Source of the DNA: an archaeon
GTDB lineage: Archaea > EX4484-52 > WAPT01
Length of the DNA: 64,000 nt
NCBI GenBank assembly: GCA_029258795.1
Contig: JAPDKB010000002.1
Coordinates: forward strand, 62,001 to 126,000
Direction of reading: 5' to 3'
Shown: piece by piece, positions 24,037-44,794 of the stretch
How the letters are laid out: the number at the start of each line of letters is the position of its first letter
How positions within the stretch are numbered: position 1 is the stretch's first letter
Notes under the pieces: generated by a model
What the model saw: only the letters and a program-made list of their open reading frames with translations
Database searches by the model: none
What the model was told of the DNA's origin: nothing
Translations under genes and position numbers: made by a program

Positions 24037-24189
24037 GGGCCGGTGGTCTAGCCTGGAAGGACGTCGCCTTGGCATCACACAGCTTTCACGGCTGTGTGCC
24101 AGTATGGCGGAGGCCCCGGGTTCAAAATGGCTGCTTACGCCGTTTTAAGAATCGGGCAAGCTTTCATGAAAATCCCGGCCGGTCCACCA
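24037..24189 (+). tRNA. tRNA-Ala(GGC) with anticodon-loop and T-loop introns
   Basis: GGGCCGG pairs with CCGGTCC including the G3:U70 pair that marks alanine tRNA, followed by A and CCA. The anticodon stem TCGCC/GGCGG encloses 37 nt. Removing 24075-24104 (30 nt, canonical 37/38) gives TTGGCAT, anticodon GGC at 24071-24073. The T stem CCGGG/CCCGG encloses a second intron, 24126-24171 (46 nt), whose removal gives TTCAAAT. The D stem is only 3 bp (GTC/GAC), unusual for Ala. The T-loop intron is clearly related to that of tRNA-Thr (44671-44794). Confidence 0.9.
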
Positions 24190-24224
24190 CATATAAATTT
24201 TTTTCTCTCCATCTTTAACTCTCA

Positions 24225-26003
24225 ATGACAAGAAAACTACCAACGATGTATGAGATAAAATCAATAAGGAATGAGACGCCTTCTATAAAGACGTTTTCAT
24301 TTCACGCTCCCGAGATAGCGAAGCTAGCAAAACCCGGGCAGTTTCTCATGGTCTGGTTGCCCGATATTGATGAAATTCCAATAAGCGTTGCCTTTGCCGA
24401 TGAGAAAAGCGGCACGGTGGAGCTGGCAATTGCAAAAGTGGGGGACTGTACATCCAAAATCCATGAGTTGAAAGAGGGTGATGTTCTGGGTTTGCGCGGT
24501 CCCTATGGTAACGGCTTCGATATTAATTATGGGATGGAGGAAGCTTGGCTCGTTGCAGGAGGGTGTGGCGCTGCCCCACTACGCTTTCTCGCAAGCAGGC
24601 TGAAGGAAAAGGGAGCGAGTGTTACAACTTTCATAGGCGCGAGAAATAGGAGTGAGCTTCTCTACCTTGCCAAGTTTAAGGAGATAGGTGAAGTTATGGT
24701 TGCCACAGATGATGGAAGCACCGGCTACAAGGGTTTTGTGACCGAACTGCTGGAAAACGAGCTCAAAAACTGCAAGCCAGACATGATTTTCACTTGCGGA
24801 CCCGAGCCCATGATGCGAAAGGTCTGTGAGGTGGCAGAAAAGGAAGGGGTAAGGGTGCAGGCATCGATAGAAAGGATGGTGAAGTGTGCAAGAGGCGCAT
24901 GCGGAGCATGCGACATTTTTGGCTTTAGGGTCTGTAAGGAAGGTCCAGTGTTCGATGGAATGTTCCTGCTCAGGACAGAATTCGGCAGGTGGAAGCGCGA
25001 CAAGAGCGGGAAGAGGATAGGGATTGCGGGCAACACAGACCTTTCCTCACCACCCATTCCCGAGTTCAGACCAACCATAAATCCCAAGCTGAGTATGAAG
25101 CTCCTCAACATCCAATTCCCGAATCCATTCATGAATGCTGCTGGTTTTGGTGTGTCCGGCATGCTTCTTTACCGCTACGTCAAAAACGGAGCTGGAGCAG
25201 TCGTTACAAAATCCGTGGGGAAGGAGGAGAGAGGAGGATTTCCCAACCCTACCTTTGGCGAGCTTGAAGATGGCACTTATTTCAACGCTATGGGTCTTCC
25301 CAACCCCGGCATAGATAATTACCAGCTTGACATTCAGGATGCGAAGAAAGCTAACGTGCCCGTTGTGGTCAGCATATTTGGACAGAGTGAGGAGGAATGT
25401 GCTTACGTGGCGTCAAAAGCCATTGAATATGGTGCAGATATGATCGAGATTAATGTTTCATGTCCTCATACGGAAATTTCAAGCGTGGAGAACGACCCCG
25501 AACTTGTGAAAAGCATAACAAGAGCTGTGGTTGAGATTGCAGGGAAAAACGGTGTGCCTGTAACCGTAAAACTATCTCCCAACGGTGATTACGTGAGCGT
25601 TGCCAAAGCCGCTGAGGAAGGAGGGGCAAGCGCCATAACCGCCATAAACACTGCACGAATAAGACCCACAATCGAGTTTGATGGCAAGGAGCTCAAAATC
25701 CTTGGAAATCCTACCGGCTATGGCGGGATGTCGGGCAGGAAGCATAAGGAAACCGGAAAGAAGGTTGTGTACGAGCTTTATGAGGAGATAAGCATACCCA
25801 TAATCGGCGTGGGAGGTATATTCAACGGCAGGGACGCTTTTGAATACGCGGCATGTGGAGCTTCACTCTTCCAGATAGGTAGCGCTATGGTCCACAGAGG
25901 CTTAAGCGTGTTTTCAGCCATCCAGAAGGAGCTTGAGGAAGAGCTTGAAAAGAATGGGTTTGAGAAGCTGGAGGATGTTGTGGGAGCTTATCACAAAAGG
26001 TGA
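24225..26003 (+). CDS. pyrKD: Fused dihydroorotate dehydrogenase: PyrK-type electron-transfer subunit plus PyrD
   Basis: 592 residues. Residues 1-265 are PyrK-like: an FAD domain, the NAD-binding region VAGGCGAAPLRF near 110, and a 2Fe-2S site at Cys221, 226, 229 and 237. Residues about 288-592 are the class 1B PyrD barrel with catalytic Cys413 (NVSCPHTEI) and FMN-site GVGGIFNGRDAFEY. Together they oxidise dihydroorotate to orotate using NAD+ in pyrimidine synthesis. In most organisms these are two separate genes. The join is clean, with no stop or frameshift. A TATA element (ACATATAAATT) just after tRNA-Ala supports ATG 24225. The stop overlaps pyrC. Confidence 0.93.
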   Translation: MTRKLPTMYEIKSIRNETPSIKTFSFHAPEIAKLAKPGQFLMVWLPDIDEIPISVAFADEKSGTVELAIAKVGDCTSKIHELKEGDVLGLRGPYGNGFDINYGMEEAWLVAGGCGAAPLRFLASRLKEKGASVTTFIGARNRSELLYLAKFKEIGEVMVATDDGSTGYKGFVTELLENELKNCKPDMIFTCGPEPMMRKVCEVAEKEGVRVQASIERMVKCARGACGACDIFGFRVCKEGPVFDGMFLLRTEFGRWKRDKSGKRIGIAGNTDLSSPPIPEFRPTINPKLSMKLLNIQFPNPFMNAAGFGVSGMLLYRYVKNGAGAVVTKSVGKEERGGFPNPTFGELEDGTYFNAMGLPNPGIDNYQLDIQDAKKANVPVVVSIFGQSEEECAYVASKAIEYGADMIEINVSCPHTEISSVENDPELVKSITRAVVEIAGKNGVPVTVKLSPNGDYVSVAKAAEEGGASAITAINTARIRPTIEFDGKELKILGNPTGYGGMSGRKHKETGKKVVYELYEEISIPIIGVGGIFNGRDAFEYAACGASLFQIGSAMVHRGLSVFSAIQKELEEELEKNGFEKLEDVVGAYHKR

Positions 26004-27301
26004 TGGTTATGCACGAGCTTGTTATCGAGGGCAGGTTTGTAACACTTGATGGTGTGAAATCCGGTTACATCGGGATTGATGGTGACAGGATTTCTGAGGT
26101 ATCGCTTAGCGCTATAAAAGGAAAGAACAAAAAGAGGTTTGCGCAGGAGTGCCTCATTTTTCCGGGATTTATCGATATTCATGTTCACCTCCGTGAGGAT
26201 GAGAGCCGGAAGTGGGTGCATAAGGAAGATTTTAAGACAGGGAGTTTAGCAGCCATTAACGGAGGCGTGACCCGTGTTGTTGACATGCCAAACACACCAG
26301 CCACAGGCACCACAAGAGAAAGGATTGAGAACAAGATTGAGCGTGCAAGAAAAGCCAAAATTCCGGTGCAGTTTTATGGCGGTATTGCAACAAACAATCT
26401 GGAAGACCTTGAAAAAATGAAAGATGTTGTGATCGGTTACAAGGGCTTTCTTTGCCAGAGCACGGGTGATATGACCATAAACTATGAGATTCTGGAAAGG
26501 GCCATCCAGAAGATCAGAGATGCTGGTTTGCCATTAACTCTCCACTGCGAGGAGCAGAGCATGGTTGATGAACTACAGAAAAAATACGCGAACTCCAGTT
26601 TGGGTGTGCTTGCTCATCCAGAAATAAGGGCTCCAGAGACAGAGTATGTTTGCGTGGAGAAGGTGTTGAAGCTTGCGGAAAAATATGATGGTATGCATTT
26701 CAACATAGCTCACGTTTCCACGCCGGAAGCAATGGAGATGGTTGAGAAAGCTAGGGAAAGGGGGCTTAAAGTTACGTGCGAGGTTACACCTCACCACCTC
26801 TTTTTCAGCAAGAGCGCGATGAAGAAGAAAGGAGCGTATCTCAAAATGAACCCTCCTTTAAGAGACGAGGAAAGGAGGAGGAAGCTTCTGAACATGGTTA
26901 AGGAGGGCAAAGCTGATTTTGTGGCAAGTGACCATGCACCCCACACCATAGAGGAGAAGGAAAGCGAAAATCCTCCGAGTGGGGTTCCGCAGCTTGATAC
27001 CTACGGTATTTTTGCAGGGTGGCTGATCAGGGAGGAAAAACTCGACCCAGCCTTGATATTGAAAATGTGTTCCTACAACCCTGCAAGATTCCTCGGGCTT
27101 GAGGATGAGGGCAAAATAGAGGCAGGATGTAGAGCAAACCTGACCGTGCTTGACACGAAGCACAGTATTAAGGTGGAGAATGATATGGTTAAGAGCAAAT
27201 GCGGATGGACACCATTCGATGGCTTAACATTTCCATCATGCGTCGCTGCTGTAATGTTGAATGGTGAGGTTCTTGCGGAATATCACGAGCTCTTCATGTG
27301 A
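26003..27301 (+). CDS. pyrC: Dihydroorotase
   Basis: 432 residues from ATG 26003, which overlaps the pyrKD stop (TGATG); ATG 26009 is also possible. The amidohydrolase metal site HVHLRE is near residue 56, with later HCEE, NIAHVSTPE and SDHAPH motifs. It closes carbamoyl aspartate to dihydroorotate, the step before PyrD, so the two adjacent genes make consecutive enzymes. No other pyr genes are in the window. Confidence 0.93.
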   Translation: MVMHELVIEGRFVTLDGVKSGYIGIDGDRISEVSLSAIKGKNKKRFAQECLIFPGFIDIHVHLREDESRKWVHKEDFKTGSLAAINGGVTRVVDMPNTPATGTTRERIENKIERARKAKIPVQFYGGIATNNLEDLEKMKDVVIGYKGFLCQSTGDMTINYEILERAIQKIRDAGLPLTLHCEEQSMVDELQKKYANSSLGVLAHPEIRAPETEYVCVEKVLKLAEKYDGMHFNIAHVSTPEAMEMVEKARERGLKVTCEVTPHHLFFSKSAMKKKGAYLKMNPPLRDEERRRKLLNMVKEGKADFVASDHAPHTIEEKESENPPSGVPQLDTYGIFAGWLIREEKLDPALILKMCSYNPARFLGLEDEGKIEAGCRANLTVLDTKHSIKVENDMVKSKCGWTPFDGLTFPSCVAAVMLNGEVLAEYHELFM

Positions 27302-27350
27302 ACGACTTCTGCCGATTGTTTTGAAAAAAACGGTATAAGGGACGAAAACC

Positions 27351-27360
27351 TTTATATAAT
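27351..27360 (+). promoter_or_regulatory. Strong TATA box for the MC1 gene
   Basis: TTTATATAAT predicts transcription from about 27383, leaving a leader of about 32 nt that carries GGGGTGAATTAG directly before ATG 27415. Both elements match the archaeal consensus well, as expected for an abundant chromosomal protein. Confidence 0.65.
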
Positions 27361-27414
27361 TCCGCATGCCTAAATAAACATAGCTAATCTTAAAACGGTT
27401 GAGGGGTGAATTAG

Positions 27415-27711
27415 ATGGCGAAGAAGGGAAAGAAGAGGTACTTTGTTTTGCTGGATGACAAGGGCAATGAAATCGGTGTCTTTACCGGAAGGCAGCCAAG
27501 ACAGGCAGCTCTTAAGGCTGCTACAAGGGGTTACACCAAAATCAGATTGAGAGAGAGGGGAACAAACAAGATCCACATCTATCAGGGTAGTAGGAAGAAG
27601 GTGCCTGCTCCAGCCAACGCACCAGAATGGATGGGTAAGGAAGTGTGGAAGCCAGTGGTTAAGAAGGTAGGAATCGAGAAGATCGAGAAGAAAAGGAAAA
27701 AGAAGAAGTAA
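27415..27711 (+). CDS. Chromosomal protein MC1
   Basis: 98 residues, very basic. The sequence follows MC1 of Methanosarcina throughout: YFVLLDDKGNEIGVFTGRQPRQAALKAA, then KIRLRERGTNKIHIY, WMGKEVWKPVVKKVGIEKI and a Lys-rich tail. MC1 is a monomeric DNA-bending architectural protein found in Methanosarcina-type methanogens, haloarchaea and some other archaea. The last 20 residues are almost all Lys and Arg, slightly longer than the Methanosarcina form. It is followed by a strong hairpin terminator. Confidence 0.93.
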   Translation: MAKKGKKRYFVLLDDKGNEIGVFTGRQPRQAALKAATRGYTKIRLRERGTNKIHIYQGSRKKVPAPANAPEWMGKEVWKPVVKKVGIEKIEKKRKKKK

Positions 27712-27720
27712 ATTTATTCA

Positions 27721-27768
27721 GGCGCTGACAACATAAGATGGTCAGCGCCCCTCTTTTCTATTTTTTCC
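27721..27768. terminator. Hairpin with U-tract between convergent genes
   Basis: GGCGCTGAC (27721-27729) pairs perfectly with GTCAGCGCC (27741-27749) around an 11-nt loop, followed by a pyrimidine-rich CTCTTTTCTATTTTTTCC. It lies between the MC1 stop (27711) and the nreA stop (27758) and can serve MC1, with the T-tract reading into the nreA end. Confidence 0.6.
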
Positions 27769-28984
27769 ATGCCACAAGTGTTGTTTGCCTTTCTTTAAGT
27801 TTGTTGAGGAGCTTGCTTATGCTTTTGAGATGGAGATTGCACTTCATTTCATTTTCAACGATTTTGATGGCTTGTTCCACACTTTCCATGATTCGTGGTT
27901 TCGTTCTCATCGCTTCCCTCACAGTTTCCCTGACCACCCACACACCCAAAGGAGCCCAGTAGTCCGGCAGGATTTCCCTCACAATCAGCACACTCGCCTG
28001 CCTTTTTATCTTTGCAAGATGTTCCAGCACGGCAAGACGGGAAGCGTAGTAACCACCAGCGGTCTCATCCACATACTTTTTGCGGGAGGTGAAGTCCTCG
28101 TAATCCTTTGTGATGTAATACCTCTTTCCAAATTTCTTCCACTCGCCAATCGGGTGGGCTATTTCCACCAGCTCGAATTTCCATGTGGAGGGAAAAAGCA
28201 GAACCCAGAATCGATTGCCGTTGTACTCAGCATAGTGAATCATCACGGAATCCACCACATCATATTGCCTTATCTCATTGATGAAGTGCTTCCCCAGCAT
28301 GTCATCCACAGCCGTTATGCTCCACCTCGTGGGAACGAGCTTCCTCTGCTTTTTCACGCCCAGCATGCCAACAGAAAGCACCCTTGAGAGTACGTTTTCA
28401 TCCACACCTCTCACATAAAGTTCAACTAAGGCATCGGTTGCTTTCAGGTCGGAATCGTAATATGCTTTCTCCACCCTTCTGTCAACTTTAGGATTTTCCG
28501 CGAGCACCATTCTTTTCAATTTACCCCTCAACCCCACAGGAGAAAAAACGTAGGAAAAGTTAACCTCTATGGATGGTTTTTTCATGAACTCCACTTCTGT
28601 TAGCACGCTTCTCCTTGCCATCGCAATTTCGTGCACCATCTCCACAAGTTTGGAAGGGGTTTTAACACTTGTTTTGAAAGCGGGATTTATCATGCTCAAC
28701 CTCTTGGCAAGTACTGAGGCGACATCCAGCTTCTGCGTGAACCAGAGGCGTGGAGCATCATAGTATTCAGGAGAGTTATCCTTAACGCCCAGCGCACCAA
28801 CATTAACAGCAGGATACCCGAATCTCCCCACAAAGACAGAAGGAGGGGTGTAGAGCTCATCCCTCTCCTTTATTTGAGTTGCCCTCTCCTTCAGCTTCAG
28901 CGCTTCCACGAAGTAGCACGGCTTTCCGCAGAGGTTTTTACCCTTGCATTTAACACAGAGCGCGGGGTCTATTATCTTGCCCAT
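27758..28984 (-). CDS. nreA: Archaeal DNA-repair protein NreA
   Basis: 408 residues. The N-terminal cysteine cluster C-x2-C-x5-C-x3-C (CVKCKGKNLCGKPC, residues about 10-23) and the regions VGRFGYPAVNVGAL and DAPRLWF are diagnostic of the DUF650/DUF651 Nre family. The protein ends QTTLVAWKK, a likely PCNA-interacting peptide, as in characterised Nre proteins. NreA is linked to repair of DNA damage together with PCNA in archaea. TATA CTAATTAAAAAC about 28 bp upstream supports ATG 28984. Confidence 0.92.
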   Translation of the reverse strand: MGKIIDPALCVKCKGKNLCGKPCYFVEALKLKERATQIKERDELYTPPSVFVGRFGYPAVNVGALGVKDNSPEYYDAPRLWFTQKLDVASVLAKRLSMINPAFKTSVKTPSKLVEMVHEIAMARRSVLTEVEFMKKPSIEVNFSYVFSPVGLRGKLKRMVLAENPKVDRRVEKAYYDSDLKATDALVELYVRGVDENVLSRVLSVGMLGVKKQRKLVPTRWSITAVDDMLGKHFINEIRQYDVVDSVMIHYAEYNGNRFWVLLFPSTWKFELVEIAHPIGEWKKFGKRYYITKDYEDFTSRKKYVDETAGGYYASRLAVLEHLAKIKRQASVLIVREILPDYWAPLGVWVVRETVREAMRTKPRIMESVEQAIKIVENEMKCNLHLKSISKLLNKLKERQTTLVAWKK

Positions 28985-29076
28985 AGGGAAATGTAGGGCG
29001 CGCAGTTTTTAATTAGTAAAACCAAAACTAGGACATATCCAAAAATATTTAATAGTGTTATCCCAATTCATCTCCT

Positions 29077-29357
29077 GCGGCAGGGCTAGGCCGGGGAGCT
29101 AGCCCCTCCCTGTAACCGCAAACGGGCTAACGGCGGGGCCGAAAACCGGGGGGCGGGCGATTGGCGGCTCGCTGGGCAGCTTGCTGCTGAACAATGACTC
29201 TCTGCCCCCGAAGGCCGCTGTACCGGTGAACCGGGTCAGGCCCGGAAGGGAGCAGCCCTAAGCCGGTACTTCGGTGCTTCGGGATCAGCGGAGAGGAGGT
29301 AGGCAGCATCTCTGCCCGCGAGCTTAGCCGCGCTCCACCCCCGGGAAGCCCTGCCGC
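29077..29357 (+). ncRNA. Signal recognition particle 7S RNA
   Basis: About 281 nt. The ends pair (GCGGCAGGG with CCCTGCCGC), forming helix 1 as in archaeal SRP RNA. The central region has the conserved helix-8 elements GTCAGGCCCGGAAGGGAGCA and AGCCGGTACTTCGGTGC. It is the RNA of the particle that targets signal-peptide-bearing proteins with SRP19 and SRP54. GC content is much higher than in the surrounding genes. AAATATTTAATAG upstream (about 29045-29057) is a plausible TATA region. The Lon-like gene starts 29 nt after its end. Confidence 0.95.
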
Positions 29358-29385
29358 GTAATTTTGCAAAAGGGTGTGGAGTTGC

Positions 29386-30189
29386 ATGAAGCGCGAGAAA
29401 AGGAGTATGACCGCAAGAAGGGTGGAGATGGTTGTTTTTATTTTGCTTGTGTTCGCTTTCTCACTTGGTCTTATGATGGGAAGCGCAGGTTATCTTGCAG
29501 AACTCATGATTAAAAGTGGTTTGGAGCAGCAAAAAGAGGTTAAGAGTGTGGAGGAGCTGACGGGGAGCAGAGCTTTTGAGGGTAACAACACCGCAAGCGT
29601 GACTATACCTGCTGTTATGGCAAACGATACGGGAGTTTACGCAACTCTCGTTGTAAGGGCCGTGCCTGGAACCGGAAAGATTTTCGTGCAGATGAACAAC
29701 TTGCTTGTGAATGATGACACGCAGCAGTCCATAAGGAAAGCGGCACTGGTGGCTTCAAAGCTCGCGGATGTCAATCTAAGCACCGTTGATCTTTATTACG
29801 AGATTAACGCCCCAGCCACCGAGCTTGAAGGAGGGAGTGGAGGAGCAACAATCGCTGTTGCGACTTATGCAGCACTTACCGGCAAGAAGCTTCGAGACGA
29901 TGTGATGATGACCGGGAGCATAAATCACGATGGCACGGTGAGCATAGCGAGCAAGGTGATAGAAAAGGCAAAGGTTGCAGAGAGTTTGGGGATGAAGTAC
30001 TTTCTCGTGCCCAAAGGCATGAAAATGCTTTACGATTACAAGCCCACAACTTTTTGCTATGAGTGGCAAGATGGTGTGGAGTTCTGCGATACAGAATACG
30101 AGCGCGTCAAAACAGAGCTTTGGAACTTGAGCGTTGAAGTCGTGGAGGTAAGCACGCTTCGGGAAGCTCTGAAGTATTTTTTGGAGTGA
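29386..30189 (+). CDS. Membrane-anchored Lon-type (S16) protease domain protein
   Basis: 267 residues from ATG 29386; GTG 29374 is in frame but has no support. A single N-terminal membrane segment spans about 14-38. The S16 peptidase domain runs from about 55 to 265 with the Ser motif GGSGGATIA near 148 and the Lys helix SKVIEKAKVAESLGMKYFLVPKG about 45 residues later. There is no ATPase domain, so it cannot unfold substrates by itself. Stand-alone Lon-like proteases facing outward are known in archaea; the target is unknown. It could share a transcript with the SRP RNA. Confidence 0.87.
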   Translation: MKREKRSMTARRVEMVVFILLVFAFSLGLMMGSAGYLAELMIKSGLEQQKEVKSVEELTGSRAFEGNNTASVTIPAVMANDTGVYATLVVRAVPGTGKIFVQMNNLLVNDDTQQSIRKAALVASKLADVNLSTVDLYYEINAPATELEGGSGGATIAVATYAALTGKKLRDDVMMTGSINHDGTVSIASKVIEKAKVAESLGMKYFLVPKGMKMLYDYKPTTFCYEWQDGVEFCDTEYERVKTELWNLSVEVVEVSTLREALKYFLE

Positions 30190-30275
30190 TAAGTTTTTGC
30201 AAGAAATTGCCAATATTATGCAAAAACTGTGAAATCGAAAACTCAGAACTTTAAACATTCTTGAGATCCATGAAT

Positions 30276-30409
30276 TGGCGCCGCGGGCCGGATTTTCACT
30301 TCTCAAAGAGCAGGTTTCCTCTTTTATTCCCAGCTCCGCTTCGAACCGGCGCGCCCTTGCGGGCAGTGGCTCTCGAGGCCACCGCACTACCTGGCTATGC
30401 GACCGCGGC
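30276..30409 (-). tRNA. tRNA-Ser(CGA) with T-loop intron
   Basis: On the minus strand GCCGCGG pairs with CCGCGGC, then G and an encoded CCA. The anticodon stem GTGGC/GCCAC encloses CTCGAGA, anticodon CGA. The long variable arm (TGCCCGCAAGGGCGC) marks a serine tRNA. The T stem GCCGG/CCGGC is interrupted; removing 30294-30340 (47 nt) leaves TTCGAAT. The intron ends GTGAAA. Confidence 0.92.
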
Positions 30410-30462
30410 GCGAAGAATACCACTACTCAATTAACATACTATTGGGTGGAGCTTTAAAATCT

Positions 30463-30912
30463 TTACTCCTTGATCTTCTTCTCAAACTCCAGAATCTGGT
30501 GTTTGAGCCTCACAAGCACATCGGTGGTTTTGCTGAGCGATTCCTTCAACTTCTCCTTTTCTTTCTCAAGCTCTTTTATCTCTTCCTCTAAGGTTGCTTT
30601 TTCAGCGGTAAGCTTTGCGACTTCATCCTTCAAACTCTTCAGTTCTATCTCCATCTGTTCCTTTTCCTTTGTTAGCTTGCTGACCTTCTGGCTCAGCTCT
30701 TTTCTCGTATGCTCAAGCTCTTCAACCTCAAGCTTCAGCTGTTGCTCTTCCGTGGTAAGTTCCTTCAACTTGTTTTCAAGCCGCTTTTTCTCTTCCTTTA
30801 TCTTTATTGCTTCTTCTATGCTTTTTTCAAGCACATCCAGAATGTTCGCGAGCTCTTTCTCATACTCCCCAGACATCTGCGCTTCTTGTTTCTTGGAACC
30901 TCCGTTTCCCAT
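30463..30912 (-). CDS. Coiled-coil protein, unknown
   Basis: 149 residues from ATG 30912, chosen because GGAGGTGAGCTA directly precedes it; an upstream ATG at 30936 has no such site. From about residue 25 to the end it is one continuous heptad-repeat coiled coil rich in Glu, Lys and Leu. There is no membrane segment or catalytic motif. It could be structural or a spacer protein. Low-complexity composition creates a long mirror frame on the other strand, which I discard. Confidence 0.72.
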   Translation of the reverse strand: MGNGGSKKQEAQMSGEYEKELANILDVLEKSIEEAIKIKEEKKRLENKLKELTTEEQQLKLEVEELEHTRKELSQKVSKLTKEKEQMEIELKSLKDEVAKLTAEKATLEEEIKELEKEKEKLKESLSKTTDVLVRLKHQILEFEKKIKE

Positions 30913-31027
30913 TAGCTCACCTCCATCTGAAAACACTGCCTGAGAATTAAGTATTGTTCACCCCTATAAATAATTTTCGAAAAAATACTCAAAAAATATA
31001 ATAGGGTGTTTCACCACAAAACAACTC

Positions 31028-32014
31028 ATGGAAATTCAGTACACTTACGAGAACCTGAACTGGATAATACTGACAGCAGGGATCATAATCATTCTACACC
31101 TTCTCGTGCTGAAAAAAAGCAGGGAGCGCGTGATTCTCTTTGCAAATTACGAAACGCTCAGAAAGGTTACTGGAGGTGAGCTAATACATCGCAATCTTGT
31201 GCCTCTTACCCTAAGAGTTCTGGCAGTTATATGTCTTTTGCTCGCGATTTCCAACCTAAAGATTATCGTGATAAAGCCGGTTTCCGATGTGGACTTCGTC
31301 ATTACAATAGATACTTCCCCCACCATGCTCAGCTCTGATGGAGGCAATTTCACCCCCAGCAGGTTGGAAGTGGCTAAAATGGCTGCCGAGCAGGTTGTGG
31401 ATGTGCTGCCCGAAACCACCAAGGTGGGTGTAGTAACATTTGCGGGCAAAGCCAAATTGAAACTTCAACTCACCAACAATAAAGAAGTCATAAAGAAAAC
31501 GCTTGATTCCATCTCTCTTGAGGGGCCTGCGGGCACAGCCATTGGTGATGCAGTAATTGTGGCCTCAATGCTCCTCTCCAACTCAACCAAGGACAAAAAG
31601 GTTGTGGTGCTGATCACAGACGGTAAATCGAATAAGGGCGTATCTATCAACGAATCCGCAAAGTTCGCCCTTGACCATGGTGTGCGCGTCAACGCTATAG
31701 GTGTGGGAAAAAAGAACGTCACTGTGCCCTTCAACATTACAGAGCTGAATTTGACCGAGCTAATCAACGAAAATGCCACCATTTATATGGGAGAGGCGCT
31801 GGATGAACAAGCCCTGCAGTACCTTGCAAACATGACGGGAGGCAAGTACTTCTACGTTCAGAACAGCACGCAGATGCTGGAAGCTTTCAAGGAATCCGTG
31901 CTGAAAGCCAATGCCGTTGAGCTGAATGTGAGAAAGTGGGCCATAATTATTGGCGTCATACTTCTCATTCTCGAATGGGCGCTTGGCGCAACCAAATACA
32001 AAACTTTACCCTGA
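31028..32014 (+). CDS. Membrane-anchored VWA-domain (BatA-like) protein
   Basis: 328 residues. Membrane segments are at about 12-29 and 58-80 and near the C-terminus (300-320). A von Willebrand A domain spans about 90-285, with MIDAS DTSPT, then TDGKSN. The layout matches BatA/BatB-type proteins, which usually accompany DUF58 and MoxR proteins. The DUF58 gene is convergent here and no MoxR ATPase is adjacent. It likely has a metal-dependent protein-binding role at the envelope. AAAAATATAATAGG at about 30991-31004 is the promoter. Confidence 0.87.
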   Translation: MEIQYTYENLNWIILTAGIIIILHLLVLKKSRERVILFANYETLRKVTGGELIHRNLVPLTLRVLAVICLLLAISNLKIIVIKPVSDVDFVITIDTSPTMLSSDGGNFTPSRLEVAKMAAEQVVDVLPETTKVGVVTFAGKAKLKLQLTNNKEVIKKTLDSISLEGPAGTAIGDAVIVASMLLSNSTKDKKVVVLITDGKSNKGVSINESAKFALDHGVRVNAIGVGKKNVTVPFNITELNLTELINENATIYMGEALDEQALQYLANMTGGKYFYVQNSTQMLEAFKESVLKANAVELNVRKWAIIIGVILLILEWALGATKYKTLP

Positions 32015-36898: not shown

Positions 36899-36905
36899 GT
36901 TGAGA

Positions 36906-37301
36906 TTATTGTTGCTTCTTCTTTTTTTCGTACTCCTCAATAAGCTTCTGTAACCCTTCAACAGCCATTTTTGTGCAGTGGACCTTTACTGGAGGCAATC
37001 CACCGAGCTCCTTAACCAGCGATTCGTACGAGAGTTTCTTCGCTTCTTCAATCGTTTTTCCCTTTGCAAGCTCCGCCAGTATGTCGCTGCTTGCTATGGC
37101 TGCAGCACATCCAAATGTTTTGAATTTGATGTCTTCAATTATCTCCTTATCTCCCTCTTTCCTGACTTTCATTGTGAAGCTCATCACATCTCCACACACA
37201 GGATTTCCAACTGTCACTTTGGCATCTGCATCCTCAATTTCTCCTGTATTTCTGGGATTGCGGAAGTGTTCTATGAGCTTCTCAGTGTAAACATCACTCA
37301 A
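36906..37301 (-). CDS. iscU: Fe-S scaffold protein IscU
   Basis: 131 residues from TTG 37301, the codon placed 6 nt after GGGGTG; the upstream GTG 37310 would overlap that site. It has the three cluster cysteines of the family: GNPVCGD, FGCAAA and VHCTKMA. Homologues use them with the Asp to assemble 2Fe-2S. It lies directly downstream of iscS on the same strand, 22 bp away, making the standard sulfur donor-scaffold pair. Confidence 0.93.
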   Translation of the reverse strand: MSDVYTEKLIEHFRNPRNTGEIEDADAKVTVGNPVCGDVMSFTMKVRKEGDKEIIEDIKFKTFGCAAAIASSDILAELAKGKTIEEAKKLSYESLVKELGGLPPVKVHCTKMAVEGLQKLIEEYEKKKKQQ

Positions 37302-37323
37302 TATTATCACCCCTCTTTATGTT

Positions 37324-38496
37324 TCACCCTTTCCATAGCGGCGAGATTTCACGCAACTTATTAACGACTTCCGGAAAGACCTCGAGGAAATAATCCACAT
37401 CCTCATCCGTGTTGAATCTTCCGGCACTTATTCTGATTGAGCCATGCGCTATCTCCGGCCTCAACCCTATCGCTATGAGGACGTGGGACGGCACGAGCTT
37501 GGTGGAAGAGCAAGCGGAGCCAGTGGATACCTCTATTCCGTACTCATCAAGCATCATGACCGTGCTCTCCCCTTCCACCCCCTCTATTGAAAAGTTAACG
37601 TTTCCCGGCAATCTTTTGTTGAGGTCAGAAGGACCATTGAGATAAACCTTTTCCAATCTGCTTGTAATACCTTCTATTATCCTCTTCTGAAGTCTTCTCA
37701 ACTTTTCCTTGTCCTTGCTCACTTCCTCCATAACAAGCTCTGCGGCCTTCCCCATACCGACTATACCCGCAACGTTCTCCGTTCCTGACCTCCTGCCCTT
37801 TTCCTGTCCACCTCCATGCAAGAGAGGGTCGATTTTCACACCGTTCCTGATGTACAAAGCGCCTATTCCTTTCGGAGCGTAGAATTTGTGCCCGCTTATC
37901 GTCATCAAATCCACGCCCAGCTCTTCAACATCCACCTCCGTCTTACCAATTGCCTGACACGCATCCGTATGGAAGTACGCGTCGCTTTTTTCCTTTACAA
38001 TCTGGCACGCTTCCTTCACGGGTTCAAGCGTACCTATCTCATTATTGGCAAGCATTATGGAAACGAGAATTGTATCCTTCCTAAGCGCGTTCTCCAGCTC
38101 TTCCAAGTTTATGAACCCTTCCTTATCCACCTTAAGATACGTGATGTCAAATCCCTGCTTCTCAAGCCACTTGCATGTGTTGAGTATGCATTTGTGCTCT
38201 ATTGGTGTGGCGATTATGTGCTTTCCTTTATCCTTATTGGCAAAAGCAACCCCTTTCAATGCCCAGTTGTTGCTTTCAGTACCGCCGCTGGTAAAGTAAA
38301 CACCACCATCCTTACAGTTTATCATCTTCTCCACCTTTTCCCTGGCATCCTCAACAGCTTCTCTGGCTTCCCTTCCCTTTCTGTGAACATTGTTTGGATT
38401 ACCCCATTTTTCCTTTAGAAAGGGCAACATAGCATCCAAAACTCTCGGATCAACGGGTGTGGTTGAGTTATTGTCCAGATAAACATATCTGTTCAT
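37324..38496 (-). CDS. iscS: Cysteine desulfurase IscS
   Basis: 390 residues from ATG 38496 (MNRYVYLDNNSTTP), preferred over the longer in-frame start at 38526 because GGTGAACTCACC precedes it. The PLP lysine lies in SGHKFYAPKG, and the catalytic Cys loop is STGSACSS near 325. It takes sulfur from cysteine for Fe-S clusters and probably for s4U in tRNA through ThiI (encoded at 4288-5454). It is co-directional with iscU; no iscA or regulator is present. Confidence 0.94.
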   Translation of the reverse strand: MNRYVYLDNNSTTPVDPRVLDAMLPFLKEKWGNPNNVHRKGREAREAVEDAREKVEKMINCKDGGVYFTSGGTESNNWALKGVAFANKDKGKHIIATPIEHKCILNTCKWLEKQGFDITYLKVDKEGFINLEELENALRKDTILVSIMLANNEIGTLEPVKEACQIVKEKSDAYFHTDACQAIGKTEVDVEELGVDLMTISGHKFYAPKGIGALYIRNGVKIDPLLHGGGQEKGRRSGTENVAGIVGMGKAAELVMEEVSKDKEKLRRLQKRIIEGITSRLEKVYLNGPSDLNKRLPGNVNFSIEGVEGESTVMMLDEYGIEVSTGSACSSTKLVPSHVLIAIGLRPEIAHGSIRISAGRFNTDEDVDYFLEVFPEVVNKLREISPLWKG

Positions 38497-38561
38497 GGTG
38501 AGTTCACCTATAACACTGTTATACAAAAAGCTTATATCGTAAAAATTTATAAATGTGTGTA

Positions 38562-40121
38562 TCAGAGAAACGCGCTCACATCCTCCTGCTTTTTCTTCTT
38601 TTCCTCAACCCATTTTCTGACCGCATCTTCCAGCGTGTCCTCAAACAAACTTGCACTGCATTTCCTCTTCCTGATTTTAACGAACACAGGGACATTCACA
38701 GCTTCTCCAACCATCACCGCTTCTCCCGGCTGGAGGGAGGTTATGAGTTCAAGCGCTTCTCTCGTGAGACCTTCCGAACTCTCCTTTATATGATTGAGGT
38801 CGTTCGGGTTTGTTATTCTCATTATGATGTGTGTGTTGCACTGTGCAAGTGCTGTCTGTGAGAGATAGTAGGGGCGCTGAGACACGAGGCATAGACATGC
38901 ATAAAACTTCCTTCCCTCCCTTGCCAGCGTTTCTATGGGCTCCTTTGCCAGCGCTTCATATTTGCTGGCTATAGAAGGGACAAAATTATGTGCTTCCTCC
39001 ACCACCAGCAGGAACGGAGGAACGACACCAGTTACTCTCATCCTGAAAAGCTGCTGTGTGAGGAGCCGCACAATCAGCAGCTTCTTTCTCACGTTTTCCG
39101 TATCGCTCAGATCTATCACGTAGAGATGTGCATGCATTATATCCCTCAGGTTTGGATACGCAACTTTTGAAAACAGGTTTAAGGAAGCAAGAGCGTTCAT
39201 TATTTCTTCCCCCACTTCTCGCTCCTTCTTCTCCAACCCCATGGAATCAAGATTTGCAAGCACGTCTTCCACATCATAACTGCCGTGTTCTTTGAAAAAC
39301 TCTCTTACTTTTGAAATGAAGGAGGATGCTGCCCTTCTTTTTTTGTCTTTTAAGTCAGGAAAAAGCAGTTTTATGAGCTCGACATCCACCACGTCAGTAA
39401 GGGAAAATGACACCTCCCTACCTTTAATTACTGTTGTCATTCTAGCATAATTTGCATCTTCCGCATAGACAGTGTATTCTCCGTGGGGGTCCACAACCAC
39501 CACAGCCGGAACATATCCTCCGTTTTTAGCGATGTCGAACAATTCTTCTATGATCACACTTACCGTGTGGCTTTTACCAGCTCCAGACATCGCAAGAATC
39601 GCAAGGTGTTTCCGAAGCAGTTTTGTCGGATCAACCACCAGGTCTACCTCAGGCTGGAAAAGGAACTTACCGAGCTTAATCCCCGATTCAGCCGTACCTG
39701 TCAGCTTTTTCACATGGTTTGGTGGAGATGGCACCACTTTATCTCCAGGTATGGGTGGAGAAAAACACTTGACGAGATAAAAATCACCATCTCCTTCTTT
39801 TATTTCCCCGATAATTCTGGCATTAGCATATACGGATTGCCATCTCTGCAGATAGGAGCTGCTGCTTGAACTCTCATCAAGCATGTCCGTCATAACAACT
39901 TTATCTTCCATATAGGGGTTATATGCAACTATATCTTCAACAACTGCAACGATTCTATGCCCACGAGAGGTAAGGACCTCCACATACTGATTCTTTCTCA
40001 CTGTATTCATTTCATCTTCATTCTCCTTTATCACGAAAGTAAGGTTTGTGGTGGATGGAGACTTTTCGGCTGACACCACATATCCTATGACTTGATCATC
40101 TTGTAACTCTTTCCCTTTCAT
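38562..40121 (-). CDS. herA: HerA-type DNA translocase (DUF87 ATPase)
   Basis: 519 residues. An N-terminal HAS-barrel region covers about 10-130, Walker A AMSGAGKS is near 179, Walker B is LLVVEEAHNF, with the HerA/FtsK-type sensor SQRPYYLSQTALAQCNTHIIMR. HerA is a hexameric 5'-3' translocase that works with NurA and Mre11-Rad50 in end resection. None of those three partners is adjacent, unlike the usual archaeal operon. TATA GTTTAAAAATTT about 28 bp upstream supports ATG 40121. Confidence 0.9.
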   Translation of the reverse strand: MKGKELQDDQVIGYVVSAEKSPSTTNLTFVIKENEDEMNTVRKNQYVEVLTSRGHRIVAVVEDIVAYNPYMEDKVVMTDMLDESSSSSSYLQRWQSVYANARIIGEIKEGDGDFYLVKCFSPPIPGDKVVPSPPNHVKKLTGTAESGIKLGKFLFQPEVDLVVDPTKLLRKHLAILAMSGAGKSHTVSVIIEELFDIAKNGGYVPAVVVVDPHGEYTVYAEDANYARMTTVIKGREVSFSLTDVVDVELIKLLFPDLKDKKRRAASSFISKVREFFKEHGSYDVEDVLANLDSMGLEKKEREVGEEIMNALASLNLFSKVAYPNLRDIMHAHLYVIDLSDTENVRKKLLIVRLLTQQLFRMRVTGVVPPFLLVVEEAHNFVPSIASKYEALAKEPIETLAREGRKFYACLCLVSQRPYYLSQTALAQCNTHIIMRITNPNDLNHIKESSEGLTREALELITSLQPGEAVMVGEAVNVPVFVKIRKRKCSASLFEDTLEDAVRKWVEEKKKKQEDVSAFL

Positions 40122-40190
40122 AAAGAGAGATGTTGCACGTCAAAATTTTTAAACAGAATATACCCTCTCGACATATTTGCAGTCGCAACT

Positions 40191-40200
40191 TTTATATATG
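40191..40200 (+). promoter_or_regulatory. Strong TATA box for a pilin gene
   Basis: TTTATATATG about 50 bp before ATG 40247 predicts a start near 40223 and a 24-nt leader containing AGAGGTGAGTGA. The elements match the consensus well, consistent with high expression of a structural pilin. Confidence 0.65.
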
Positions 40201-40246
40201 GGCAAATCCATAAACATCAGTAAGCTAAGCCCAAAGAGGTGAGTGA

Positions 40247-40675
40247 ATGATGGCAAGGAAAGGTATATCTCCATTGATAGCGGTAGTGTTGCTCGTGGTC
40301 TTTACAGTGGGTATTAGTGTAGTGATATCCAGCTGGCTGAGCAGCTATGCCAAGCAAACCACAGAACAGGCAGGACAGGGCACACAGCAGGCCATAGAGT
40401 GTGCAAAAGCTGTGGTTGACATAACCGATGCAACGAACAACGGCGTGTTTGTGGCAAATGTGGGTGCTACAGACATAACGGTTACGAGATTATACCTCTA
40501 CGACGATAACAACAATATCTGTTCGCAGGATGTGAATCAGAACCTCCAGATAGGAGAAGAAGTGTACATCAACTATAACTTCACAGGATGTCCTGCAGGC
40601 TTTAACAGCGCAGCACTAACAAAGGTCAGAGCAGTGACGAACTGCCCAGGAGTAACAGATGAATACACTTACTAA
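40247..40675 (+). CDS. Archaeal type IV pilin
   Basis: 142 residues. MMARKGISPLIAVVLLVVFTVGISVVIS shows the archaeal flagellin/pilin leader (K-G processing site, then ISPLIAV) and hydrophobic helix. The rest is a small beta domain with four cysteines (ECAK, ICSQ, GCPA, NCPG) that may form disulfides. ATG 40250 is an alternative start. It stands alone with a strong promoter, away from the pilus motor genes at 50-54 kb, which may assemble it (inference). Confidence 0.88.
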   Translation: MMARKGISPLIAVVLLVVFTVGISVVISSWLSSYAKQTTEQAGQGTQQAIECAKAVVDITDATNNGVFVANVGATDITVTRLYLYDDNNNICSQDVNQNLQIGEEVYINYNFTGCPAGFNSAALTKVRAVTNCPGVTDEYTY

Positions 40676-40805
40676 CCGACAAAAATTAGAAAGCAAGATT
40701 TTTCCTCTTTTCTTCTTTTTCATTTATTTTGTGGAGCATCCCATACGGAGTTTCAAAAACTTTAAATACCTTATTGCAATTATAAGAAATATCATCTTCT
40801 GCAGA

Positions 40806-40929
40806 CCCGCCGTAGCTTAGTCTGGTAGAGCGCTCGGCTGTAGGTCTGTGCCGCGTGGTATGGCGCAGCCACGCAGCCAGTTGCTCAGAAACCGAGAGGT
40901 CCCCGGTTCGAATCCGGGCGGCGGGACCA
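40806..40929 (+). tRNA. tRNA-Tyr(GTA) with canonical anticodon-loop intron only
   Basis: CCCGCCG pairs with CGGCGGG, followed by A and CCA; C1:G72 is typical of archaeal tRNA-Tyr. The anticodon stem CTCGG/CCGAG encloses the loop CTGTAG plus A, anticodon GTA (40840-40842), with intron 40844-40890 (47 nt) at 37/38. The T arm CCCGG-TTCGAAT-CCGGG is normal. This is the only tRNA in the window without a T-loop insertion. Confidence 0.93.
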
Positions 40930-41253
40930 AATTGAAAATGCTAGATTTTTCATAACAAACATGTATTCAAAATCCAATCGGTAATTTTTTATAAGTAAAA
41001 ATGAACGGATATGAAAGGGGATTTGAACACTTCTGACTGTTCAAGAAATATTCTGAAAAAGATTAGAAATATTTCCACCTTATCTATGAGACCACAAAAC
41101 TTATTAAGCACTTTTTGACGAATTATGAGAAAAGCTAGTTATTTAGAAGTGAATAACTCATTTTGTAAAGGACTCCCCACAAAAGAAATTAGAAACACAG
41201 AGGGAAAATTAAACATTTTTTACAAATGGTCTATTAAGTAATGAATGAGGAAA
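40930..41253. other. AT-rich non-coding stretch
   Basis: 324 bp between tRNA-Tyr and the glycosyltransferase stop. It is markedly AT-rich, with no credible gene, no tRNA and no repeat that I can see. A duplicate of the tRNA 3' end (as would mark an integration site) was looked for and not found. Confidence 0.5.
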
Positions 41254-42684
41254 CTACCCAAAGGGTGAGTTAGGAATATTCAGCTTTTTGTACAAATATG
41301 CGCAACTTTCTCCTTTACATATTTCTTTTATAATTTTTAATGAAGAGTCGTTACACCTGAAAAATGCTATCTTATATTCAATTGGAGATTCTAAAAATTC
41401 TTTCTCAGAATATACCACATGTATCTTTTTATTTGAATAGAATGCAATTGGAGGACAATTTCCAATACAGACAACTTCAGGAATATTAGTGGTGTTGAGA
41501 TAGAGACCCATTTCTTTAGTAACATATCTTAATCCTTGCTCAAATTCTATTTGAGGAGTGTAACATCTTTGGTATTGTGTAATTAAAAAAGAAAATGAAA
41601 ACAGAATAAAAAATGAAAATATAATAAAGAATATTGGGCGATCCAACTTAAAATATTTTCCAAACTCTACAAAAAAATAAGATATGAAACACACTAGAAA
41701 AGATACCAGAAGAAGAAAAAACCTTTCTACTTCCCAAGGAATTGTAGGAGGCTTCGCAACATTTCTAAAAACTATACTTGAAGAGTATACAAATAGTGTC
41801 AAAGAGGCATAGATTAGAATAAGATTATATTTTCTTTCATATGGAGATAATTGTCTGTTGAATATTTTTTCTTTCATAAAAATAAGTATTCCAAGAAAAG
41901 AAAAAAGCACAAAACCAGTTCCTAGAGAATCGTTAAAAAGATAAACTAAAAAACTAAGCTCAGACTTGTCTCCTTCGGAAATTACATGTGATGCCTTTAT
42001 GAAGGTATAGAAAGGGTTTCCAAATTTTAGATAATTGAACAATATATACGGTAACATTCCCATGAAAAAGATAAAAATGAAGAAAAATATCTCTTTTATT
42101 TTCTTTCTTCTAATTAATTCTAGAACTAGTGGCAATATTAGAACCCAAATCAAAAGATTTGTGAATTTCATCAAAACTGCTAAACTCAAGAACAATGCAC
42201 TTGCATAAATATGTACTGGGTTTTGGTTTTTTGTTCCATAATACATAAGAATGAAACTCATTAAACCAAGAACACACGCGGGATGATCTGTAAGGACATA
42301 CCTACTGTGGAGTATGCTAAGCGGAAATATCGCAATAAGAGAGGAACTAAATCTTGCAACTCTTTCATCAAATAATTTACCTAAATAGTATACAGGAAAA
42401 ACAATTAAAGAATTAAAAAAGGCAAGAAACACTTTAGAATATACGAGATAATTTTGTGGAGATAATTTCCATATAATGGCTAAGAATAGAGATATCAATG
42501 GAGGCCTTAAAGAGATTTCTTCATACCCAATTTCTTCCCCTCCAAATAATTTTCCGTGGAGTAAATATACGGCTTCGTCCCATATCACATACGTTGTATC
42601 TATAAATGTGAGTCTCAAAAATAAAGCTATTCCAAAAATAAATAGGAGGAATGTCACATCCTTTCTGCCCATCTTCAATCTCAT
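41254..42684 (-). CDS. GT-C family membrane glycosyltransferase (PMT/ArnT-like)
   Basis: 476 residues with about ten membrane helices. The catalytic acidic pair lies in the first extracellular loop (IDTTYVIWDEAVYLLHGKLF), followed by RPPL before the second helix, as in PMT/ArnT/AglB-related lipid-linked sugar transferases. It would transfer a sugar from a polyprenyl carrier to a protein or lipid outside the membrane. Codons are strongly A/T-biased compared with its neighbours, and it sits beside a tRNA gene, both consistent with acquisition by transfer. TATA TTAATTTAAAC about 25 bp upstream supports ATG 42684. Confidence 0.82.
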   Translation of the reverse strand: MRLKMGRKDVTFLLFIFGIALFLRLTFIDTTYVIWDEAVYLLHGKLFGGEEIGYEEISLRPPLISLFLAIIWKLSPQNYLVYSKVFLAFFNSLIVFPVYYLGKLFDERVARFSSSLIAIFPLSILHSRYVLTDHPACVLGLMSFILMYYGTKNQNPVHIYASALFLSLAVLMKFTNLLIWVLILPLVLELIRRKKIKEIFFFIFIFFMGMLPYILFNYLKFGNPFYTFIKASHVISEGDKSELSFLVYLFNDSLGTGFVLFSFLGILIFMKEKIFNRQLSPYERKYNLILIYASLTLFVYSSSIVFRNVAKPPTIPWEVERFFLLLVSFLVCFISYFFVEFGKYFKLDRPIFFIIFSFFILFSFSFLITQYQRCYTPQIEFEQGLRYVTKEMGLYLNTTNIPEVVCIGNCPPIAFYSNKKIHVVYSEKEFLESPIEYKIAFFRCNDSSLKIIKEICKGESCAYLYKKLNIPNSPFG

Positions 42685-42911
42685 AATAGTTTGTTTTTCG
42701 TTCGTTTAAATTAATTATAATTATCACGGAAATTATCGACCTGTTCTCTGAAATTCAATTTATGGGATAAATGATATTAATTGAATCTAGATTTTTGGAG
42801 ATGACAAAATAAAATAAATTCGTAACGATTAAATCCAAGAGGAGAGGATAAGAGTGCTGGCATTATGATATAATTACCAGAAGTAGGTTTAGAAGCGCCT
42901 TCTCATTTTCA

Positions 42912-44318
42912 TCATTCAATCATTATCTCAGAACTTCTGGTTCTTATCTTTCTTCTTCCAACCTGTGCTCGCACTTCTACTGGTGGAAGCTTTATTTTGC
43001 CCTCCACGTGCAAAAGCGGCTTTATTTTGTAAGCGAGCACCTTCTCCTCTCCCGGTTTCAAACTTGCGAATCTCCACACTATTCTTGTCTTTCCATGCAA
43101 TTTTTTGATTTCCACGGGCTTTCCAGCCTCAAATTCTCTTATCACCTGGAACATTCCGGGCACGTCATCCACGACTTCAACGTTCTTAAGCGTGCGTTTG
43201 CCACGGTTTCTTATGGTTACATAAACTTTGTGTATGTCCTCATGTCTCCTGTGTTTTTTATGCACACGCGGATATTGCACGACCTCAAAAACAATGAAAA
43301 AGATGATAAGTGCAGCCAGAATCATGAACAAGAACGGCCAGTAGTTTATTCCGTATCGTATCGTGCATGATTCAAGCGGTTTTAGTTTGCATTCCCACAC
43401 GAAATAAGTGCTTCCATCCTCCTCCACAATCTCTGGCTTGGTGATTATTATGTACGCAAAGTCAGGATATCTTTTTGGTTCTTGAATAGTGAATGTTCCT
43501 TCCTCATTACCTTTGTTGGTTACAGTTATGATTATTTCTTTCTCCATGAACTTTTTCTCCACTGCTTTGGATTTATCCATCACAGCTTTGCTCTCGATGG
43601 TAAAGGATGTTCTTTTTTCATCCAGCGTGTCACCTATATCATCAACGAGTTTTGCCACCACACTATATTCTCCCTTTGCTTTATACGGATCGAGGGTGAA
43701 GTTGAAAGTCAGTAACTTTGTCTCGTTGACCTTTAGATCAGGCACACGTTTTTTCGCAACTTCTTTGCCAGTTATACCTTCAACCTCAACAACCACGTAG
43801 ATGTTGTAGCCTTCTGTGCTCTCAGAACCCTCGTTTTTGACACCCACCATAACCGTTATCGGCTCGCCCATCGAATAAAGTTGCTTGGATGTTTCGAGCT
43901 TTTTCATCACGAGCTTTATAGATTTTTCCACGTAGACAGTGTCTTTAATTTCTATTTTCTGAGCATGATTATTTTTGTTCCTGACTATAATTATGAACTG
44001 GTAAAGACCGGACGGTGTTCCTTCGGGAGGAGAGATGGTGATGGAGACCTTTTTAGTTTCATGGGGCGCAAGTCGCAGGTATGATGGCTCGACATTATAC
44101 CACGCGATCTGAGAAGCGCTCAGAAGCACCTCCAGTTCTAAAGGTGTGTCTTCAAGGTTGGTTATAATCGCGGTGTATTTTACGCTTTCAGGTGGTTTGA
44201 CAACCTTCACATCCGCTAAAATTTTCACCTGAAACGGATTTGTTTGAGAAAAACCAACAGGCATCAGGTTAACTATGAAAATCCCCAGCACCGCGAATAG
44301 CAAAATATACCTCTTCAC
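42912..44318 (-). CDS. Membrane-anchored surface protein with NEW3/CARDB-like domains
   Basis: 468 residues from GTG 44318, 6 nt after GAGGGG, which begins with the signal peptide MKRYILLFAVLGIFIVNLMPVGFSQ. ATG 44336, overlapping the upstream stop, is an alternative. Repeated Ig-like/CARDB-type beta domains (LAPHETKKVSITISPPEGTPSG is typical of the NEW3 domain) lead to a membrane segment near 330-352, then a basic stretch (HKKHRRHED) and a final beta domain. It is an envelope protein of unknown ligand, likely co-transcribed with the small wHTH gene upstream. Confidence 0.78.
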   Translation of the reverse strand: MKRYILLFAVLGIFIVNLMPVGFSQTNPFQVKILADVKVVKPPESVKYTAIITNLEDTPLELEVLLSASQIAWYNVEPSYLRLAPHETKKVSITISPPEGTPSGLYQFIIIVRNKNNHAQKIEIKDTVYVEKSIKLVMKKLETSKQLYSMGEPITVMVGVKNEGSESTEGYNIYVVVEVEGITGKEVAKKRVPDLKVNETKLLTFNFTLDPYKAKGEYSVVAKLVDDIGDTLDEKRTSFTIESKAVMDKSKAVEKKFMEKEIIITVTNKGNEEGTFTIQEPKRYPDFAYIIITKPEIVEEDGSTYFVWECKLKPLESCTIRYGINYWPFLFMILAALIIFFIVFEVVQYPRVHKKHRRHEDIHKVYVTIRNRGKRTLKNVEVVDDVPGMFQVIREFEAGKPVEIKKLHGKTRIVWRFASLKPGEEKVLAYKIKPLLHVEGKIKLPPVEVRAQVGRRKIRTRSSEIMIE

Positions 44319-44332
44319 ATCGCTCCCCTCAA

Positions 44333-44524
44333 TCATTCTGTGGGCGAGTAGTAGCATCTCTTGGGAACACATACCAATCCTTTCTTTTTAAGCTTGCTCA
44401 TTATTCTGGACACCTCCTTGACTTCCATCCCCGGCATTCTGGCCACTTCTCCCGGTCTAACGGGTTTGCCAGCTTTTTTCATGGCGTCCAGCAACAACTT
44501 TTCCTCCTCGCTTATGTTGCTCAT
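44333..44524 (-). CDS. Small winged-helix DNA-binding protein
   Basis: 63 residues. Helix-turn-helix at about 20-48 (RPGEVARMPGMEVKEVSRIMSKLKKKGLV) with a short wing. It resembles other short archaeal MarR-like regulators. It lies directly upstream of the NEW3 surface-protein gene on the same strand and may control it. GGGGGCGAGTTA precedes ATG 44524. Confidence 0.72.
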   Translation of the reverse strand: MSNISEEEKLLLDAMKKAGKPVRPGEVARMPGMEVKEVSRIMSKLKKKGLVCVPKRCYYSPTE

Positions 44525-44670
44525 TAACTCGCCCCCACTTTACATAGAAAATTGCCAGCAAAATGATAAATATGTTTTGTCATGTTTTGAAAGAAGATGA
44601 GATTCGAAATATCGGTTAGGACCTAAGGCGGGAGTGATGGTCTAAAATTAGGAAAAATCCGTGATATGAT

Positions 44671-44794
44671 TGGAGCCCCGGCCGGGATTTTCATGGAAGA
44701 TTACTCGACCCTTAAAGCGGCGTCGAGCAGCCATTTTGAACCCGGGACCTCTTCCTTACCAGGGAAGCGCTCCACCAGGCTGAGCTACCGGGGC
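44671..44794 (-). tRNA. tRNA-Thr(GGT) with T-loop intron
   Basis: On the minus strand GCCCCGG pairs with CCGGGGC, then T and an encoded CCA. The anticodon stem CTTCC/GGAAG encloses CTGGTAA, anticodon GGT. The T stem CCGGG/CCCGG is interrupted; removing 44689-44735 (47 nt) leaves TTCAAAT. The intron starts AATGGCTGCT and ends CCATGAAA, like that of tRNA-Ala (24126-24171), and has an internal helix CTCGAC/GTCGAG. Confidence 0.92.

Follow-up and report, generated by a model that had tools for sequence, protein, structure and literature searches.

Small T-loop introns have very probably been copied recently between unrelated tRNA genes of an archaeon

Introduction

Mobile introns that encode endonucleases include group I introns and the archaeal rRNA introns with LAGLIDADG genes. 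How archaeal tRNA genes gain introns is still an open matter, and the principal example to date is the intron transposition of the Thermoproteales (Fujishima et al. 2010, Mol Biol Evol 27:2233, as summarised in PMC4033280 and PMC4090602), the mechanism of which is described as unknown. In Caldiarchaeum, gain of a tRNA-Thr intron through an integrated mobile element has been proposed (PMC3293823). The junction of nucleotides (nt) 59 and 60 is a listed non-canonical position of archaeal tRNA introns (PMC4090602), and splicing of broad specificity is usually associated with (alpha-beta)2 and epsilon2 endonucleases (PMC6379350). Described here is a set of T-loop introns at 59/60 in the tRNA genes of an archaeon (lineage EX4484-52, WAPT01; assembly GCA_029258795.1), initially noticed in the tRNA-Ala(GGC) and tRNA-Thr(GGT) genes of a 64,000-nucleotide stretch of contig JAPDKB010000002.1 (positions 62,001 to 126,000), referred to here as the window. 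These introns have very probably been copied recently between unrelated tRNA genes of the host.

The host genome (G000) comprises 1.17 Mb in 23 contigs and is placed by its relatives as a DPANN lineage; the window is archaeal, as it contains an archaeal signal recognition particle (SRP) RNA gene. Compared with it were two genomes of the same genus (G001 and G002) and wider relatives of the same order, including G005. The tRNA inventory was built from targeted searches of the genome, in which tRNA-Asp, tRNA-Lys(TTT) and some others gave no match. Candidate genes with T-loop introns were spliced in silico and scored as tRNAs, and covariance models were used to search for additional ones. The T-loop intron pattern matched 23 times in the host genome and not once in a reversed control. 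Counted without a bacterial-looking contig and two doubtful tRNA-like loci, at least 28 of the 41 archaeal tRNA genes of the host carry an intron at 59/60 and 13 do not; G001 and G002 have about nine T-loop introns apiece.

Related introns in tRNA-Ala and tRNA-Thr

Inserted into the T-loops of both tRNA-Ala(GGC) and tRNA-Thr(GGT) is an intron (family A) that begins with ATGGCTGCT, contains ACGCCG-TTTAAG and ends with CATGAAAA. The original prediction had located both introns, one base away from the positions given by the bulge-helix-bulge (BHB) register, 5'-TTCA AA^A ... TGAA AA^T-3', in which nt 54-57 of the T-loop, TTCA, are the partner of a TGAA that lies at the intron's 3' end (Table 1). 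The bulges, AA^A and AA^T, are of 3 nt, and splicing restores TTCAAAT; owing to the run of A, the splice register is ambiguous.

With the last 6 nt omitted (the C' strand and bulge, which are set by splicing), the two introns agree in 32 of 41 columns and need a single gap, bearing out the prediction of a common start, a common ACGCCG and TTTAAG, and most positions aligned with one gap. None of 20,000 dinucleotide-shuffled pairs reached the observed score of 48 (null mean 3.9, maximum 33). Independent origin, with the similarity imposed by the splicing fold, could account for the last 6 nt or so of each intron, since pairing with TTCA or TTCG constrains the C' strand to TGAA or TGGA. The similarity remains without those 6 nt, however, and is refuted as a product of the fold by the shuffle test; moreover, the His, Ser(CGA) and Arg(GCG) introns at the same site are unrelated to the others, and the splice fold is therefore not enough to produce similar introns. 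We regard the chance of independent origin as practically negligible.

Nor do the two tRNAs derive recently from one gene, as mature Ala(GGC) and Thr(GGT) are identical at 56 of 76 positions, the same as Ala(GGC) and Glu(TTC), and Ala(GGC) and Ala(CGC) at 66 of 74. Because the similarity is not confined to splice-constrained positions and the genes are not recent duplicates, transposition or gene conversion explains the pair better than independent origin, as had been proposed. A further ATGGCTG heptamer in the tRNA-Leu(GAG) intron, also pointed out at the time, is real but lies at the 3' end beside the C' strand and is no evidence of homology; since it sits at the opposite end of the intron, Leu(GAG) was dropped as a candidate member of family A.

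A larger intron family across the genome

Most of the weight is borne by a second family and by comparison between species, whereas the original prediction saw one pair only. Family B (consensus TGCTGCGGAAGC...GCTGCTCCGCAGCTGAAAA) is larger than family A: it occupies about 12 tRNAs, which between them serve at least eight amino acids. Its members are found in Cys, Gly(TCC), Gly(CCC), Glu(TTC), Ala(CGC), Val(GAC), Pro(TGG), Pro(CGG), Leu(CAA), Leu(CAG) and Met, and less clearly in Pro(TGG) copy 2 and Glu(CTC). Pairs of introns at least 70% identical number 24, and 22 of these join different amino acids; identity reaches 95% between the introns of Ala(CGC) and Val(GAC) and 100% between those of Leu(CAA) and Leu(CAG). 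Intron identity and exon identity are uncorrelated (Mantel r 0.08, p 0.12). All clear members of families A and B sit at 59/60, and an intron-only covariance model found no copy of family B outside tRNA T-loops in the genome. G005, another genome of the order, shows comparable sharing, as a Leu and a Gly tRNA there have near-identical T-loop introns.

Near-identical introns are also present in the D-loops of tRNA-Arg(TCT) (L021; G000:C5:23050-23550) and tRNA-Arg(CCT) (L022; G000:C3:79200-79650), with z about 20; the one in Arg(TCT) is missing from Arg(TCT) of G002. This Arg(TCT) intron resembles a G005 T-loop intron (0 of 10,000 shuffles, for a pair picked after many pairwise comparisons), a likeness that hints that an intron family can change position.

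Ends of the copied segment

Family B introns occur in five different T-stems, which in most cases checked are those of the intronless orthologues. In the closest pair, Ala(CGC) and Val(GAC), the T-stem and T-loop differ (CCGGG TTCAAA and CCAGG TTCGAT), and nt 57 and 59 are kept, Val having TTCGAT and Ala(CGC) TTCAAA with or without the intron. As the same bases are found in intronless orthologues, no exon sequence moved with the Ala(CGC)/Val intron, and the copied segment ends at the splice junction. We infer that only the intron itself is copied and that its transfer is exact to the splice sites.

Ordinary gene conversion, with tracts over the T-arm, would have spread the introns along with exon sequence. 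T-arms are alike across tRNAs (GGTTCRA...TCC) and provide short homology, and one exception to the pattern above fits such tracts well: the variable arm and T-stem of Leu(CAG) are unlike those of its G001 and G002 orthologues, and both the arm and the identical intron are common to Leu(CAA), which reads as a clear gene conversion. In most family B members, however, the T-stem and T-loop have the bases of the intronless orthologue and not those of the putative donor (Val, Leu, Pro and Met versus Cys, Gly, Ala and Glu), so that conversion tracts would need ends exactly at nt 59 and nt 60. Conversion of this kind is a serious possibility, to which we give somewhat less than an even chance.

Splicing and the tRNA endonuclease

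Spliced in silico, the intron-bearing sequences become tRNAs with plausible anticodons, and their exons are equal or nearly equal to those of intronless orthologues. With G-U pairs counted, most genes have a complete four-pair match between the C strand (nt 54-57) and C', and Gly(CCC), Ile(TAT) and Met have three of the four pairs. Compensatory changes occur in the h' helix of family B, a feature to be expected if the introns are spliced.

Likely to excise these introns is EndA, encoded by one endA gene (L114:396-986). The 197-residue product has both Pfam domains, with M. jannaschii 1a79 and 5x89 as its closest sequences, and is probably of the alpha4 form; it gives the one PF01974 match in the genome, in a search that a very divergent second subunit could escape. 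Relative to 1a79, EndA has two lysine-bearing insertions, GKWIEEEK and NPYKKGEK, the lysines of which are invariant in eight aligned proteins. The EndA insertions in the order (GK...EEEK and NPYKxGxK) lie near the places of specificity loops in other archaea. By analogy with the loops that broaden specificity in crenarchaeal and ARMAN enzymes, they may have a similar effect.

Gain and exchange between close species

Orthologous tRNA genes of G001 and G002 were read directly. Fourteen tRNAs have a T-loop intron in the host and in neither of these genomes. The Ala(GGC) locus is syntenic in all three, upstream of the same dihydroorotate dehydrogenase-like gene and with a common 3' flank, and its T-loop contains a family A intron in the host and a family B intron in G001 but is uninterrupted in G002. 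In each of the three genomes the Thr(GGT) gene comes after the same open reading frame (ORF), and it has the intron in the host only; the intron was thus gained after the Ala and Thr genes separated. Across four other families of the order, Thr(GGT) likewise lacks an intron in 13 genomes, from which it follows that the host Thr intron was gained. Together, the three-state Ala(GGC) locus and the host-only Thr(GGT) intron point to introns gained and exchanged recently.

Alternatively, the introns could be ancient: duplicated tRNA genes would have kept them by vertical descent, and other lineages would have lost them. G001 and G002 could have losses in common, and the Ser(CGA), Ser(GGA) and Ile(TAT) introns, which are similar between G001 and G002 orthologues, were indeed inherited there. 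The Ala(GGC), Glu(CTC) and Pro(TGG) introns, by contrast, are closer to those of unrelated host tRNAs than to those of orthologues, and neither the intronless Thr(GGT) genes of four other families nor the three states of Ala(GGC) within one genus suit this explanation, which is very improbable.

Replacement at a single site is indicated by two copies of tRNA-Pro(TGG) lying 5.9 kb apart, with exons that differ by one base, a common 3' flank and different T-loop introns. Introns might also arrive with the attachment site of a mobile element or virus whose integration targets are tRNA genes, as in the precedent model from Caldiarchaeum (PMC3293823), and the Pro duplication around apparent hyp genes would fit such an event. 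Against it, no integrase-like product was seen among the ORFs between the copies, as read by eye with no profile search, and most intron-bearing tRNAs are single-copy genes with no such duplication. Viral contigs gave 24 and 17 exact 16-mer matches, which is chance level, none of them in a tRNA T-arm or BHB context, and plasmids searched with the Ala tRNA gave no match. Delivery of this kind is improbable, if less so than vertical inheritance.

The Pro(TGG) locus itself (L287; G000:C3:45500-53500) resembles an island bounded by a tRNA duplication: the copies flank apparent hypE, hypF and hypD hydrogenase maturation genes, recognised by eye, and the repeat begins at the first tRNA base and extends beyond the 3' end.

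Proposed route of intron movement

We propose that small BHB introns, cut from the precursor by EndA, spread as copies between tRNA genes. As the sequences show, an intron resident in one gene turns up in another, unrelated one at the 59/60 junction, normally leaving the exon bases of the T-stem and T-loop unchanged, and introns at 59/60 also replace one another. Owing to restoration of the mature tRNA by splicing, gains would be nearly neutral once the BHB forms. In the leading route, held tentatively, an excised intron would be ligated into the T-loop of another tRNA and the RNA then copied into the gene. Almost equal in probability is gene conversion at the DNA level, by short tracts exchanged between tRNA genes; other routes of movement are unlikely. 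The precision of the junctions slightly favours an RNA intermediate. Bolder, and doubtful in our judgement, is the notion that an intron family is a site-specific mobile RNA, entering 59/60 of almost any tRNA by reversed host splicing (EndA/RtcB) and then being copied into the gene, with no encoded enzyme, reverse transcriptase or homing endonuclease.

Several points weigh against recent copying or against the RNA route. The T-loop inserts are taken to be spliced BHB introns from restored cloverleaves and BHB geometry, and in unconstrained minimum free energy folds the 4-bp central helix is often unpaired. As G001 and G002 are closely related to each other, their ancestor could instead have lost 13 of the 14 introns presumed to be gains, and the wider outgroup polarises gain for Thr(GGT) only. 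All genomes compared are metagenome assemblies. Reverse transcriptase PF00078 had no match in G000, G001 or G002, which slightly disfavours the RNA route.

tRNA genes of the window and other loci

The tRNA genes of the window are listed in Table 1. For the spliced form of the gene at 24037-24189, the ARAGORN label Thr(ggt) was dropped, since the G3:U70 pair of the acceptor stem and the anticodon GGC in the canonical BHB register identify tRNA-Ala; the G001 and G002 orthologues are labelled Ala(ggc) by the same program. The tRNA-Ile gene, with anticodon UAU, carries two introns; this anticodon is a rare decoding solution in archaea.

Table 1 Positions of tRNA genes, introns and SRP RNA in the window
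Feature	Position	Strand	Remarks
tRNA-Ala(GGC), including CCA	24037-24189	+	Canonical anticodon intron from 24075 and T-loop intron; syntenic with G001 L270 and G002 L135
Family A T-loop intron (59/60) of tRNA-Ala(GGC)	24127-24172	+	46 nt
tRNA-Thr(GGT), including CCA	44671-44794	-	Called Thr(ggt) by ARAGORN when spliced; G001 and G002 orthologues syntenic and intronless
Family A T-loop intron of tRNA-Thr(GGT)	44688-44734	-	47 nt
tRNA-Gly(CCC)	19690-19809	-	Family B T-loop intron 19704-19752, 84% identical to Cys intron elsewhere in genome
tRNA-Leu(GAG)	1833-2005	+	Canonical and T-loop introns (T-loop 1944-1988); G001 and G002 orthologues without T-loop intron
tRNA-Leu(TAG)	2035-2175	+	T-loop intron 2107-2158, weakly similar to Trp T-loop intron
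tRNA-Ser(CGA)	30276-30409	-	T-loop intron 30293-30339, unrelated to families A and B
tRNA-Ile(TAT)	62013-62172	+	Canonical and T-loop introns (T-loop 62120-62158); G001 and G002 orthologues also have intron at same site
tRNA-Tyr(GTA)	40806-40926	+	Canonical intron only; no T-loop intron
Archaeal SRP RNA gene	29079-29355		

Outside the window, contig G000:C11 (9,256 bases; L009) carries a tRNA cluster, Thr-Tyr-Gly-Thr, followed by the apparent start of an EF-Tu gene, and is probably a bacterial contaminant although the listed contamination is 0. A tRNA-like sequence at L269:119-247 (G000:C3:58850-59400), with Glu-like acceptor and T-arm ends around an odd 130-nt body, is called Gly with an intron by ARAGORN and is either a pseudogene or a multi-intron tRNA.

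Comparison with known systems

In common with archaeal non-canonical BHB introns, those described here have the 3-4-3 BHB geometry and a length of about 25-50 nt; what sets them apart is their density, with 28 of 41 tRNA genes occupied at one site. Like endonuclease-encoding mobile introns, they appear to be copied into an intronless target at a fixed site, but they are too small to encode anything, and LAGLIDADG_1 and LAGLIDADG_3 (PF00961, PF14528), the endonuclease families to which the search was confined, had no match in the three same-genus genomes (G000, G001 and G002). Unlike an insertion sequence or a miniature inverted-repeat transposable element, family B has copies in the genome only at tRNA T-loops. 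As in Caldiarchaeum, tRNA introns are polymorphic within a species or between close species, whereas the insertion there is tied to an integrated element and none was found beside the host introns, except possibly at the Pro duplication.

The resemblance to the Thermoproteales, as far as the summaries of that case describe it, extends to near-identical BHB introns in different isotypes whose tRNA bodies are not closely related, and to rapid lineage-specific gain, here fully polarised for Thr(GGT) alone. In those summaries the Thermoproteales introns lie at canonical and several non-canonical positions, in contrast to the clear family members of the present host, which are at 59/60; further differences are the DPANN host with its 1.17-Mb genome, the one endonuclease gene found, and the three intron states of one syntenic locus within a genus. 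A literature search for DPANN and tRNA introns, with subscription literature outside its scope, found no work with this subject in its title or abstract.

The phenomenon is intron transposition of the Thermoproteales type, known from a single other order of archaea, and it is unusually clear and recent in this host; new are the DPANN lineage, the single site, the single-gene endonuclease and the three-state locus. A large set of non-canonical introns coexists here with a single endA of alpha4-type size, as against the usual link of such splicing with (alpha-beta)2 and epsilon2 enzymes (PMC6379350). The lineage offers very recent single-site transfers, and since the copies are up to 95-100% identical and the same-genus genomes supply orthologues that lack the intron, the limits of what was copied can be traced to the exact base, in a process for which the Thermoproteales have been the main case.

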